A DNA stretch of 32,044 bases from Thermoplasmata archaeon (GTDB lineage: Archaea; Thermoplasmatota; Thermoplasmata; Thermoplasmatales; Thermoplasmataceae). Position 1 is the stretch's first letter, and every line of letters begins with the position of its first letter. Location: positions 1 through 32,044 of the forward strand of contig JAJZJZ010000013.1 in NCBI GenBank assembly GCA_021809755.1, given 5' to 3'. The notes beneath the pieces are model-generated. The model ran no database searches. It was not told the origin of the DNA and worked only from the letters and a program-made list of their open reading frames with translations. Of this stretch, positions 142 to 5,082 are shown piece by piece. A program made the translations under genes and the position numbers.

Positions 142-428
142 TTCAGTTCCTCACAATCCTTTGTGACTCTCACCAAAATTATCATTGCTACAATCAAATA
201 GACACTGAAAACAACAATGAGAATTGCTACTGCATACCAGACAAACAATGGTATGTTTGTTGTTCCACTTAATTTAGTTAGTAATTCGTACGCTATGATC
301 CCAAGAAATATCACACCTATGATCATAACAAAGTCTATTTTTGTTTCATGAGAATGAGAATTTGTAACCTTCTTAATATTACCTTCTTTTTCCTTTTCCG
401 TTGTCTCTAAATGTTTGTTACTTATCAT
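138..428 (-). CDS. small membrane protein, two predicted TM segments
   Basis: 96-aa ORF with hydrophobic stretches DFVMIIGVIFLGIIAYELL and IPLFVWYAVAILIVVFSVYLIVAMIILV. ATGA overlaps with both neighbours. Confidence 0.7.
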   Translation of the reverse strand: MISNKHLETTEKEKEGNIKKVTNSHSHETKIDFVMIIGVIFLGIIAYELLTKLSGTTNIPLFVWYAVAILIVVFSVYLIVAMIILVRVTKDCEELK

Positions 429-835
429 TTTTTCAGTACCTCCGAAAGCTTTTCACGATTCCGTCTTTTTAATTCCATCTGGTATTCTTCTGTCAATTCA
501 TAGTCATCTTGCGATTCCGGATGTTCACACCCACAATAATAACACTGTCCATCGGGATGTTGAATCCTTCTGTGAACTTTATATGGTTTGCCTGTGTCAG
601 GATCTGGATCAATAAATAACAGTTCCTTAAGGAGATGCCCGCAATTAATGCATCTGTAGATTATTTTATATGTTTTATCAAATATATCCCTTCTACAGGG
701 GTATTTTTCTCCTTTTACGCCGGTCATGATGGCATCACCTTTTGTGTATTTGACCACTCCACCAAGAGCCTCGACTTCTCCATCTTCATTTGCGAATTCA
801 AATTCCACAATTACAGGCTTCTTGACTGCTTGCAT
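425..835 (-). CDS. zinc-ribbon-like hypothetical protein
   Basis: 136-aa ORF with CINCGH...CYYCGCEH (two CxxC knuckles). Operon context. Confidence 0.7.
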   Translation of the reverse strand: MQAVKKPVIVEFEFANEDGEVEALGGVVKYTKGDAIMTGVKGEKYPCRRDIFDKTYKIIYRCINCGHLLKELLFIDPDPDTGKPYKVHRRIQHPDGQCYYCGCEHPESQDDYELTEEYQMELKRRNREKLSEVLKK

Positions 836-836
836 A

Positions 837-1475
837 CTACCAGCTCCTTTGTTTTATGAGATCCAAATATTCCGGAGGAACGAAATCTCCAGCTCTTTCT
901 CCTTGGCCTGTTCTAACACAGTGATATTTTGTGGACAAAACGATATCGGGGATATCCTGGTAAGAACTAACGAGTTCCGAGAAATCTTTGTTCAGTTTGT
1001 CAATATCGAATTTAATTCCATACCTCTGCTCTATAAATTCGGGCTTGGTTGTGATACTTTTTGCTGACGGACTCAATTTAACCGTTTGAGAGATAAGGTG
1101 TTTTAAAGCCATTCCCGGATATCTCTGTTCAATTTCTTCAATAGCAGCTCTCTTTTTTCTTTCCTTTTCCTTCTCCTCTTCCACAAGTATTTGAGACCTT
1201 TTGACCGCAAGCTGAGCCGTTAATTCTGCCTCTTCCTGTTTGAGCATAGATATTTTGCCGTCAACCGAATAAATGGATCTGATGAGATAACTTAGGGCCT
1301 CTGCTATGGTTTTTCCCTTGAGATTGAAATATAATAGTTCCCAATCTTCCTGAGGTATCCACGCATGGAGCTCCTTTTTCAACTTCCCGGCAACTATTGG
1401 AGGCCTTCCTCTTCTATTTTCTGGAGCGTTCATTTCAATTCTTACCCTTCTTTCTTCATCTATTATTTCATTCAT
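837..1475 (-). CDS. putative DNA-binding protein: AT-hook-like RRGRPP, RHH-like N-terminal segment, then coiled coil
   Basis: 212 aa. N-terminal ENRRGRPP, then KKELHAWIPQEDWELLYFNLKGKTIAEALSYLI (RHH-like strand-helix-helix pattern), then a Glu/Lys-rich coiled coil. AGAGGTG ribosome-binding site before the ATG. Confidence 0.6.
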   Translation of the reverse strand: MNEIIDEERRVRIEMNAPENRRGRPPIVAGKLKKELHAWIPQEDWELLYFNLKGKTIAEALSYLIRSIYSVDGKISMLKQEEAELTAQLAVKRSQILVEEEKEKERKKRAAIEEIEQRYPGMALKHLISQTVKLSPSAKSITTKPEFIEQRYGIKFDIDKLNKDFSELVSSYQDIPDIVLSTKYHCVRTGQGERAGDFVPPEYLDLIKQRSW

Positions 1476-1594: not shown

Positions 1595-1716
1595 TTATTA
1601 TGTACATAATAATTTTTCCTGATTTTGTACAAATTCACTTTTCCCTGTTGTAGACTGCTTCCACGATTTTGTACAAAATCATTTTTTTGACATTTTTCCT
1701 TTAACATGTACATATT
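1595..1716. promoter_or_regulatory. cluster of four GTAC-centred (near-)palindromes, candidate operator or replication-origin elements
   Basis: TTATTATGTACATAATAA (1595-1612, perfect 18 bp); GATTTTGTACAAATTC (1621-1636, one mismatched pair); GATTTTGTACAAAATC (1665-1680, perfect 16 bp); AACATGTACATATT (1703-1716, one mismatched pair). Confidence 0.6.
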
Positions 1717-3797
1717 CATAAAACCCCGTACCTCCCTGGTCCAGCTTCGAAAATATCGCCTGACTTGTACATTGCCTCAATTGCCCTCTCCACATTCCTT
1801 GAGTTTACATTATCTCTAGAAGCAGCTGCAAAGATCTCTTCTCTTCCTATTGTACCATGGATTCCAATCAGGTTCCTTATCCATATTATTGAGTCTCTTA
1901 CGCTCCTGGTAATTCCTGATATGGCATCCATATCATAGTCGAACTGCCTCAGGTAAATATCCACAAGCTCCTTTGCCGCTTCAAAATCCTCTTTGGTTGT
2001 GAACTCATCCATCCTTAATCTTGCACTTGCCAGGGTAAGTCTCTTTATTGATTCAAGAGTCCTTGGATTTATGGTGCTTTCCCCCTTCTTTTTTCTCACA
2101 TCTGCATAGAAGTGGGCTATGAGGGTGCTAACTTCCTCAGTTAATTTTGGATTAATCTGCGATGCAAGCGAGATATATTTGGCAAGGAAATCCGGTTCCT
2201 TCATTGATGTAAAATTAGAGGAGAGGATCTTCTTTGCCTTCTCAATTTCATAAGTATCAGAACCGTTTTTATCGATCAGGATAAAAATCAGGTCAAATCT
2301 GTTCAGCAAAGGCAGTTCAATGTTGACCTGATCTGCAATGGGCTCTCCTACGTCAAATTTACCATACTTAGGATTGGCGGCTGCAAGTAGCGAAGTTCTG
2401 GACTGGAAATGAGCGTGGAGGCCTGCTTTCGACTTGGATATAAATCCCTGTTCCAATGCTGTGTGTATTCCTTCCCTGTCCTCTTTTTTCATCTTATCCA
2501 TTTCGTCTATGCATGCAACTCCCCTATCGGCAAGGACAAGCACCCCTGCCTGCATAACCTTCCTTCCGTTGATATCCGCTACAGCAGCGGTGAGTCCGGC
2601 AGCTGATGCATCCGAAACATAGATGCTCTTGGATGCAGCTGATGGATTTGCTTTGAGCAGTTGAGACTTTCCCAACCCTGGATCTCCTATGAGGAGCAAA
2701 TGGATCTGGCCTCTTCTCCTTATTCCTCCTACATTTTCATCTGGAGCTCCGGCAGCTTGGAGAATGATCGCATGCTTGACATATTCATAACCCACTATGG
2801 TAGGAGCATATAATTCCCCAAGATGCCTGAGAACATCTCCCTGATTCCGGAAAGCTTCTATCTGCTTTCTGTCCTCATCGCTAATTACGAGGTTCTTATC
2901 ATCCTCCTTGGAGATGTATAATACCTCTGCTACCCTTCGGAACAAGATATCGCCACTCTTGGTCTTTTCCTCTATGGCCTTTAGCAGTGCAATTACTGAC
3001 ACCCTGTCTCCGGGTGAGTACAATCCTGTTTTATCACCACTTAGAATTATTTCCAGAGATGTTGGGAATCCACTTGAATCCTCAAAATTTTCTGTAATTA
3101 TGCATTCCTGGAACTTCTCAGTCCTTTTTTCTATAATCGAAAATTTGGTTTCCTTCTTGCAACCCGGACACCATGCAGGACTTTCTGTTCCTTCTATTGC
3201 GTCACCACATCTTGAGCATTCCCATCTTGCATATAGTATCCTTTCCTTTGGGGGGTCCTGAACATATGTGAGCCATCCTTTCAGCTCGACTAACCTTTCC
3301 TCGTCCCGTTCAAGATTGATTTCCCGTATGTGCCTGCTGAATAAATTGGCATTCACAAGTTTAAACCTTGGGAGTGAAAAATCCTCATATTTATCATCGT
3401 CAGGATTCACAACTAATTCCCACAAGGCCTTATTCATTTCATCCATTGTCTTTACCGGGTCCTGTTCAAGACGTTGTATAAGTTCTCTCATTTTTCTGGC
3501 CTGCACATTCCTCCTTGTTTTCCGGAAAATATTCTCTCCCAGCTCTTGAATTTGAGAGCTGCTCAAATGAGATATAATTGCCTTAAAATCATCGTTGGAT
3601 GGTGGATGATATGAGAATTCGGACAGCTCCGAGATCTCTTCCAGGTCTATGATATATTCATCACAATAGACATGGTGTTTATTCTTTGTCAAGCTGTCAA
3701 AAAAGGCTGGCATTTCGGAGATTATATCACTTGCCCAACTCTCCGGTGAAGGTAAATTAGAGGGGGAAATTTGCGATTGTATGGTATGTTCACTCAT
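1716..3797 (-). CDS. mcm: MCM-family replicative DNA helicase (plasmid/provirus context)
   Basis: 693 aa. Zinc motif CSRCGD...CPGCKK, Walker A GDPGLGKSQLLK, Walker B VACIDEMDKM, LLNRFDLIF arginine-finger region, C-terminal winged-helix-like tail. Confidence 0.93.
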   Translation of the reverse strand: MSEHTIQSQISPSNLPSPESWASDIISEMPAFFDSLTKNKHHVYCDEYIIDLEEISELSEFSYHPPSNDDFKAIISHLSSSQIQELGENIFRKTRRNVQARKMRELIQRLEQDPVKTMDEMNKALWELVVNPDDDKYEDFSLPRFKLVNANLFSRHIREINLERDEERLVELKGWLTYVQDPPKERILYARWECSRCGDAIEGTESPAWCPGCKKETKFSIIEKRTEKFQECIITENFEDSSGFPTSLEIILSGDKTGLYSPGDRVSVIALLKAIEEKTKSGDILFRRVAEVLYISKEDDKNLVISDEDRKQIEAFRNQGDVLRHLGELYAPTIVGYEYVKHAIILQAAGAPDENVGGIRRRGQIHLLLIGDPGLGKSQLLKANPSAASKSIYVSDASAAGLTAAVADINGRKVMQAGVLVLADRGVACIDEMDKMKKEDREGIHTALEQGFISKSKAGLHAHFQSRTSLLAAANPKYGKFDVGEPIADQVNIELPLLNRFDLIFILIDKNGSDTYEIEKAKKILSSNFTSMKEPDFLAKYISLASQINPKLTEEVSTLIAHFYADVRKKKGESTINPRTLESIKRLTLASARLRMDEFTTKEDFEAAKELVDIYLRQFDYDMDAISGITRSVRDSIIWIRNLIGIHGTIGREEIFAAASRDNVNSRNVERAIEAMYKSGDIFEAGPGRYGVL

Positions 3798-4087
3798 CTT
3801 CCATACCTCCTTTGCCTTTGTTCAACGTATTTTTCCCTTTGGACCTTTTCAGCAGGATCTGGATACAAGGCAAACACCTTTATCTCAAATACCCCAGGCT
3901 TGTCATTTATGACCACTGATTTGTCCTGGTGTTTTTTTACAAAATCATGAAGACCAAGAATTGCAGATTTGGTATCTCCTGAGAATATTTGCAGGACATC
4001 TTCATCTCTACTCGAAAGTATATTCCTTGATCTGTCTCTGTAAAGGATCAACTCAAGGGCATTAACGAGATTTGCCTGGTAGTTCAT
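3794..4087 (-). CDS. hypothetical protein translationally coupled to MCM
   Basis: 97-aa ORF with ATGA overlaps to the MCM start (3794-3797) and to the upstream gene (4084-4087). GGAGG ribosome-binding sites within the overlaps. Confidence 0.65.
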   Translation of the reverse strand: MNYQANLVNALELILYRDRSRNILSSRDEDVLQIFSGDTKSAILGLHDFVKKHQDKSVVINDKPGVFEIKVFALYPDPAEKVQREKYVEQRQRRYGR

Positions 4088-4260
4088 GCTGGACTACCTC
4101 CATTAATTGCATTCTGACAATCGCACGAGCCGTGCATGCAAAAATCTCTGTAATATCCAGACCTTTTGTCATGAAGGACACTCTTAGATTCTATGAGCTT
4201 TTTATGGTAGGTTTTACCGTCGAATTCTACGACTCTATGGCCACAGCTTTGACACTTCAT
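4084..4260 (-). CDS. 58-aa Cys-rich zinc-binding-like protein
   Basis: The track ORF 4084..4341 is better started at the internal ATG 4260..4258, preceded by GAGAGGAGGTATTAGC. Product MKCQSCGHRVVEFDGKTYHKKLIESKSVLHDKRSGYYRDFCMHGSCDCQNAINGGSPA. Confidence 0.65.
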   Translation of the reverse strand: MKCQSCGHRVVEFDGKTYHKKLIESKSVLHDKRSGYYRDFCMHGSCDCQNAINGGSPA

Positions 4261-4400
4261 GCTAATACCTCCTCTCTTGGCGGAAAAGAAAAACGTCTTA
4301 TCTCGTAGTGCCCTGCATTCATAGCCTGGTGATCCTTCCATGTCTGACTAATTGTTTTTGAATGGAGGATCCTTCCGCAAGAACATTCCAGATAGGTCAT
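4257..4400 (-). CDS. 47-aa micro zinc-finger-like protein (paralogue of the next gene upstream)
   Basis: Not in the ORF track (under 60 aa). MTYLECSCGRILHSKTISQTWKDHQAMNAGHYEIRRFSFPPREEVLA*. GGAGGTAAGGGC ribosome-binding site; ATGA overlaps on both sides. Confidence 0.65.
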   Translation of the reverse strand: MTYLECSCGRILHSKTISQTWKDHQAMNAGHYEIRRFSFPPREEVLA

Positions 4401-4549
4401 GCCCTTACCTCCTTGGACTGATTAATAGGTAGATATGTCATCCTCCTTACCTCAAAATGGTCCTTGTTTTTCCTCAAGTGGCCATTAAGGGCGTTCGTTG
4501 ACTTACGTAAATGAATGACTATACCGCAACAGCAAACAGAATAGCTCAT
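4397..4549 (-). CDS. 50-aa micro zinc-finger-like protein (paralogue of 4257..4400)
   Basis: Not in the ORF track. MSYSVCCCGIVIHLRKSTNALNGHLRKNKDHFEVRRMTYLPINQSKEVRA*. GGAGGTGGTAGA ribosome-binding site; ATGA overlaps on both sides. Confidence 0.65.
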   Translation of the reverse strand: MSYSVCCCGIVIHLRKSTNALNGHLRKNKDHFEVRRMTYLPINQSKEVRA

Positions 4550-4689
4550 TCTACCACCTCCATAAGCAACTCACCAAGAGAAGACGGTTCGTATAAGTGA
4601 GTTAAATACCACTCTTTCAACAGCTCATTCAGTCTATCTTGAGAAAGGAGATGGGCTTGTTTGACTTCCAATGAAGATAGAGAAATCAT
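4546..4689 (-). CDS. 47-aa hypothetical micro-protein, apparent first gene of the operon
   Basis: Not in the ORF track. MISLSSLEVKQAHLLSQDRLNELLKEWYLTHLYEPSSLGELLMEVVE*. Its TGA overlaps the next ATG as ATGA. An in-frame GTG start lies 9 nt further upstream. Confidence 0.5.
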   Translation of the reverse strand: MISLSSLEVKQAHLLSQDRLNELLKEWYLTHLYEPSSLGELLMEVVE

Positions 4690-5082
4690 TGAGGCCACCC
4701 CATTGAAAGAATCGGAATAATTAGGCGAGAGCCTCTCCCCGCGCTTTATTTTATGTTACAGAACTTGCCGTGGACTCTGTTTATCCCTACATTTCCCTTA
4801 ATGTAATATTATTCTTGAAACTTTGAATTCTTCCTCAATAGAGCAATATACCTCAGTTAATCATTTGCAAACACTTTCAGAGGTCAAATAGATCCAAGTT
4901 ATTGCCTAACTTGTAACAACGTCATTATGGCATTAAGAAATCTCTTTGCAACACGCTTTAAATAGATTTTATGGCACTGAATTTAGAACACACCAACTAA
5001 GTTGAATTACTTTGAATAATTTTACACACAATTCATTAAGTAATATTATCATCAATGTTTTCCTGTTCCAATCAAACACAGT

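Follow-up and report, generated by a model that had tools for sequence, protein, structure and literature searches.

Tandem CxCG micro-proteins with a predicted C2H2-like fold in integrative elements of Thermoplasmata

Small zinc fingers of archaea and their viruses

AFV1p06 of Acidianus filamentous virus 1 is a 59-aa protein with a strand-strand-helix-strand arrangement, which binds one zinc ion and, as judged by EMSA, DNA (PMC3541406). In its solved structure (AFV1 ORF59a; PDB ID: 2LVH) the strands span residues 8–13, 19–20 and 45–50, and the helix residues 23–32. Relatives encoded by Sulfolobus spindle-shaped viruses (SSV), such as A-45 of SSV1, are 43–48 aa long (one, SSV3 ORF26, is annotated as 77 aa) and lie, in the Sulfolobus virus records read, among small genes that overlap or abut one another; the SSV4 relative directly follows an ORF annotated as a C2H2 finger. 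One-domain micro-proteins of less than 70 aa with two C(P)xCG motifs (C4), mostly unannotated, have been described in the archaeon Haloferax, and one-domain fingers are in general capable of RNA binding (PMC6562870).

We analysed a 32,044-nt stretch of contig JAJZJZ010000013.1 of an acidophilic Thermoplasmata archaeon (assembly GCA_021809755.1), referred to below as the window, in which two adjacent minus-strand genes encode micro-proteins with a CxCG motif followed by a pair of histidines. The family to which they belong resembles AFV1p06 and its SSV relatives in size (43–59 aa for the viral proteins, the annotated 77 aa of SSV3 ORF26 apart), in being encoded in an archaeal virus or provirus setting, and in general design, with a single finger in which a Cys pair is followed by Gly, a hairpin, a helix and a third strand (predicted here). 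However, the spacing is C-x2-C-x12-H-x4-[E/H] in the viral fingers and C-x-C-x11/15/18-H-x6-H in the window family, from which the shared viral sequence YQCxRCG...YFYxYFRVRE is absent. Profile-profile comparison of the family with AFV1p06 and the SSV proteins (hhalign) gave a probability of 0.6% (E 0.095), and pairwise shuffles mostly yielded p>0.05; therefore, a likeness of design is claimed, and not membership.

With classical C2H2 fingers (zf-C2H2) the family shares the ligand order Cys-Cys-His-His and a predicted hairpin-helix, from which it departs in having CxC instead of CxxC, Hx6H instead of Hx3-5H and an extra C-terminal strand. The original prediction had pointed to this unusual spacing, and all eight members of the family bear it out: each has C-x1-C-x11/15/18-H-x6-H and none fits C-x2-4-C-x12-H-x3-5-H. 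Pfam zf-C2H2 was matched neither by single members (up to E 1) nor by an alignment of six members (up to E 5). A classical-type finger is encoded as well by the element of one relative, G064 (see below). The Haloferax proteins are similarly tiny, archaeal, mostly unannotated and built on a CxCG-type knuckle, but they are of the C4 type, whereas each protein of the window family has a single CxCG and two His.

Two tandem coding genes and their family

The two finger genes are part of a series of minus-strand genes that overlap and encode, in order, proteins of 50 aa, finger 1, finger 2, a 58-aa Cys-rich protein, 97 aa, an MCM helicase, 83 aa, 212 aa, 136 aa and 96 aa. The features discussed are as follows.

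4546–4698, minus strand: first gene of the operon, 50 aa, GTG start; weak BLASTP match (E=0.012) to the 54-aa first gene of a second element of the same genome (contig C176)
4397–4549, minus strand: CxCG finger paralogue 1, 50 aa (MSYSVCCCGIVIHLRKSTNALNGHLRKNKDHFEVRRMTYLPINQSKEVRA), ORF with Shine-Dalgarno site GGAGGT; 74% identical homologue at G032:C28:2285–2434
4257–4400, minus strand: CxCG finger paralogue 2, 47 aa (MTYLECSCGRILHSKTISQTWKDHQAMNAGHYEIRRFSFPPREEVLA), ORF with Shine-Dalgarno site; homologues in G032 (two copies), G064, G418 and G096
4084–4260, minus strand: 58-aa Cys-rich protein, CxxCGH...CxxxxCxC; Shine-Dalgarno site, alignment with relatives
3794–4087, minus strand: 97-aa protein; 76% identical homologue in the C176 element, which lacks the finger pair
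1716–3797, minus strand: element-type MCM helicase, 693 aa; Pfam MCM 1e-63, phrog_10371 2.9e-106; best relatives 44% and 41% identical, in G009 and G058
837–1475, minus strand: 212-aa coiled protein with a GRP start; matches beside the element MCM in G058, G029, G009 and G038

Inspection of the ORFs gave the coordinates and translations of the two fingers as originally predicted. The paralogues align without gaps over 36 residues, C6, C8, G9, H13, H24, H31, E33, R35 and R36 being identical in the pair, and their alignment score of 82 was reached by none of 20,000 shuffles, the best of which scored 48. Both genes are preceded by strong Shine-Dalgarno sites (GGAGGTGGTAGA-ATG and AAGGAGGTAAGGGC-ATG), GGAGGT or a close variant, as is clearly the case at nearly every start of the run, with the exception of the GTG of the first 50-aa gene. 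They overlap their neighbours by 4 nt, a pattern typical of coupled genes in one operon. The C-terminal [KE]EV[LR]A common to both paralogues encodes the Shine-Dalgarno site of the next gene, and this likeness is largely accounted for by that site and not necessarily by protein conservation.

Homologues are present in a genome of the same genus, G032, in which three tandem copies lie on a 5-kb contig. The copy order is alike in the two genomes, an a-type copy first and a b-type second, with one extra copy in G032; the tandem duplication is therefore older than their split. Between the first copies (74% protein identity) synonymous sites are saturated (pS 0.90) at a dN of 0.24, with 11, 11 and 30 substitutions at codon positions 1, 2 and 3, respectively; between the second copies pS is 0.88 and dN 0.31. 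Saturation at synonymous sites combined with constraint on the amino acids shows that the finger genes are coding and that their proteins are under selection, and the pattern is not the non-coding one by which the original prediction would have been refuted. Short length is the one property that these ORFs share with chance reading frames or decayed gene fragments, and the probability that they are such is negligible in view of this pattern, the Shine-Dalgarno site at each gene, the conserved tandem order and the homologues in five genomes. Tandem paralogous micro-proteins, as proposed from the sequence, are thus real.

Profile searches in Thermoplasmatota covered overlapping sets of genomes: 77 from the family, 117 from the order, and samples of 400 from the class and 390 from the phylum. 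Beyond the window genome and G032 only three carriers were retrieved: G064 of the same family (E 9e-20), G418 of another family within the order (E 1.3e-10), where the finger forms the N-terminus of a 178-aa protein, and G096 of another family within the class (E 7e-7). The finger family thus consists of eight copies in five genomes, all of them Thermoplasmata, and pairwise shuffles support the kinship of all members. In the MAFFT alignment the gap of the G064 member was misplaced when fewer members were included, and H24 and H31 came into register once G418 and G096 were added. Weak matches from the class search (G022, G053, G065, G600 and others) were discounted as short, frame-broken or devoid of the Cys pair. 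A scan of GTDB r220 matched only the G032 contig (JAKATR010000061.1, MAG YP3.bin100). Scans of IMG/VR with two family alignments gave no convincing match, the sole hit (L138) being an unrelated frame without CxC in an apparent bacterial tailed phage, and tblastn against phages and plasmids returned only noise.

The Cys/His set is kept in the four other genomes. The eight copies share the motif C-x-C-G-x(10/14/17)-H-x6-H and, five residues past the last His, an Arg that never varies. Of the signature originally read from the pair, C6, C8, G9, H24, H31 and R36 are invariant, whereas H13, E33 and R35 are not universal: E33 is replaced by V in the third G032 copy, R35 varies across the family, and H13, a candidate fifth ligand, is missing from the G064 and G096 members, those with the shortest (x11) spacing, and is therefore not a core ligand. 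The second Cys is followed by 11, 15 or 18 residues before the first core His, and the two core His are always separated by six. These steps of 4 and 3 residues look like insertions of helical turns that would keep the helix face, in line with a helix ahead of H24.

Finger loci in integrative elements

The finger operon starts 34 bp from an attachment core, and the location in a mobile element originally proposed for it is supported. Two features mark this boundary.

4732–4744: attachment core CCTCTCCCCGCGC, an exact match to the final 13 nt of tRNA-Ser(GCT)
4745–4846, minus strand: decayed C-terminal tail of a tyrosine integrase, with stops in all three minus frames; 73% DNA identity (4732–4846) to the 3' end of the L122 tRNA-Ser integrase

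Intact tRNA-Ser(GCT) genes are found in the window genome itself (G000:C167; L122 9875–9957) and in a relative with an empty site (G030; L125 6625–6707). The chromosome of the latter has the order S53-type peptidase (by eye), tRNA-Ser(GCT), 61-aa ORF and helicase-like gene. Contig C167 of the window genome carries the tRNA-Ser and the helicase-like gene and then a tyrosine integrase gene, the 3' end of which runs into the tRNA; the window corresponds to the peptidase side of this locus. C167 and the window may hold opposite ends of a single element. A core followed by an integrase tail is the arrangement that attP, or the junction of two tandem elements, would show, and a second element, inserted in tandem, may have left the region from 4745 to about 7300 as its remnant; by eye, this region holds genes for a membrane protein, an acetyltransferase and a DsrE-like protein. 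The 2.1-Mb assembly has a heavy load of integrative elements, with 15 tyrosine-integrase matches, 14 of them over the family cut-off. About 6 kb inside the tRNA-Ser integrase of C167 (L128 7861–9853), a gene resembling the three-Cys-motif partner (TcmP) lies beside a radical-SAM-like gene (by eye), possibly as cargo or defence.

All finger copies have a mobile-element context. Three of the loci have a tyrosine integrase close by, and two of these integrases overlap a tRNA gene: one, about 1.6 kb beyond the finger operon of G064, overlaps tRNA-Asp, and the other, about 0.6 kb downstream of the finger in G418, overlaps tRNA-Pro. In G096 the finger operon is followed by an integrase and then by a winged-helix protein 32% identical to one encoded on the G032 contig. 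On that 5-kb contig no integrase was seen, and its element nature is deduced from the genes shared with other finger loci. Besides a tyrosine integrase, the operons of G064 and G096 contain further small proteins of Zn type and genes judged by eye to be ribbon-helix-helix-like. The CxCG operons of G064 and G032 encode small proteins similar to the 58-aa Cys-rich one; these two are 61% identical to each other and the one in the window is more distant. As a separate observation, the finger operon of G064 is preceded (L024 264–10306; G064:C1 about 118263–128305) by genes for a surface-type protein of 1985 aa, for a P-loop ATPase that matches phrog_22963 (1.7e-22) and for a serine resolvase, possibly an undescribed Thermoplasmata provirus.

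The original prediction placed the pair directly upstream of the MCM gene and suggested a part in element replication. The genes for the 58-aa and 97-aa proteins in fact intervene. The fingers do share an operon with an element-type MCM in the window, the host MCM being encoded separately (G000:C76), which is what accessory factors of MCM-dependent element replication would show. However, an element-type MCM was seen in none of the four other finger genomes (G418 is about 52% complete, and the single G096 MCM is on another contig), no CxCG finger was found in the MCM-carrying elements read in three relatives (G009, G029 and G058), and the C176 element has the 97-aa gene without the finger pair. 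The accessory role is largely refuted by this non-co-occurrence, and we regard it as very improbable.

Two further observations concern the neighbouring genes. The 136-aa Cys-containing protein (428–835, minus strand) matches uncharacterised phage families (phrog_4502, 2e-10; phrog_419, 2e-9). In the closed genome of G029, two element-type MCM genes that score identically lie about 29.4 kb from each other (G029:C1 1812007–1813707 and 1841438–1843138), with matching coiled-protein genes, possibly a tandemly duplicated element.

Predicted fold and candidate functions

In agreement with the expectation that the pair escapes standard annotation, searches of Pfam, PHROGs, NCBIfam, PADLOC and PDB gave no convincing family match. 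No Pfam zinc-finger family scored above cut-off; one member weakly touched zf-UBP (E 0.07), and another alone matched the non-zinc PF08833 (E 0.00076), which we take as chance. Matches in PDB to ribosomal protein L31 and PhiC31 integrase were short CSCG coincidences.

AlphaFold2 modelling of six members predicts strands at residues 2–6, 11–14 and 33–37 and a helix at 17–27 (pLDDT 85.7), and the same order of elements for the G064 member (pLDDT 65). In the model the Cys pair sits at the hairpin turn, H24 within the helix and H31 just past it, so that the predicted fold is a C2H2-like arrangement plus a third strand. Foldseek searches against PDB and BFVD gave no significant match; a 48-aa protein of Nitrosopumilus spindle virus in BFVD is suggestive (prob 0.77, E 0.59), and weak resemblances to the RING and ZZ protein-binding folds all had E>2.

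Our preferred reading, held with middling confidence, is that the fingers are zinc-stabilised, C2H2-like, one-finger DNA-binding regulators of the own genes of an integrative, perhaps proviral, element. As single-domain products of an element targeting tRNA-Ser(GCT), they would each hold one zinc ion, with C6 and C8 contributed by the hairpin turn and H24 and H31 by the end of the helix, and the third strand (residues 33–37, with invariant R36) would complete a small sheet. Each would be a compact regulator expressed early from the operon at the att end of the element. Divergence between the tandem copies affects the helix, so that they probably recognise different target sites.

Several observations argue for this regulatory role: coding genes under selection; C-x-C-G, H-x6-H and R36 invariant, with the candidate Cys/His ligands kept in all eight members; helix-compatible spacing steps; the operon company in G064 and G096; and the window's att core with the adjoining integrase remnant. 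By analogy, AFV1p06, with the same order of elements, binds zinc and DNA, and its SSV relatives also lie among small genes. Against it stand the chance level of the likeness to AFV1p06 and the SSV proteins and the lack of a significant Foldseek match or a Pfam zinc-finger family.

By residue count the net charge is about +6 for copy 1, which is basic, but only about +1 for copy 2, so that DNA binding is not obvious from composition; binding of protein or RNA is equally compatible with a zinc finger. Zinc fingers frequently bind proteins, and the very small size, the tandem diverging copies, the patchy presence among element operons (the sister operon on C176, for instance, has none) and the faint RING and ZZ resemblances would suit inhibitors or adaptors whose binding partner is the host RNA polymerase, a defence protein of the host or some other protein of the element, in host takeover or counter-defence. 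The finger operon has no defence-associated neighbours and no PADLOC match, which speaks against such a role, and we consider it possible but unlikely. Action on element translation or mRNA through RNA binding, of which one-domain fingers are capable (PMC6562870) and with which the basic copy 1 agrees, appears improbable. An equally doubtful proposal is that CxCG/Hx6H plus a third strand defines a new type of zinc finger, so far found only in Thermoplasmata integrative elements, whose tandem copies would vary their helix faces to suit different sites of hosts or rival elements, or different defence proteins, like a finger array split into genes.

Returning to the regulators that we favour, the finger family is real, small and easily missed, ORFs of 47–50 aa readily falling below length cut-offs. 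Small one-finger proteins are already known from archaeal viruses and integrative elements; this family is a further variation on that kind, and categorical novelty is not shown. Few small zinc-finger proteins are known from mobile elements of archaea, and this family, which has no annotation in the libraries searched, enlarges their number; it comes from Thermoplasmata elements that appear little described in the literature searched. If zinc and DNA binding hold true, the range of C2H2-like spacing would be widened, and one-finger regulators carrying a third strand, known first from a structure solved for a crenarchaeal virus, would be seen to arise in euryarchaeal elements too.
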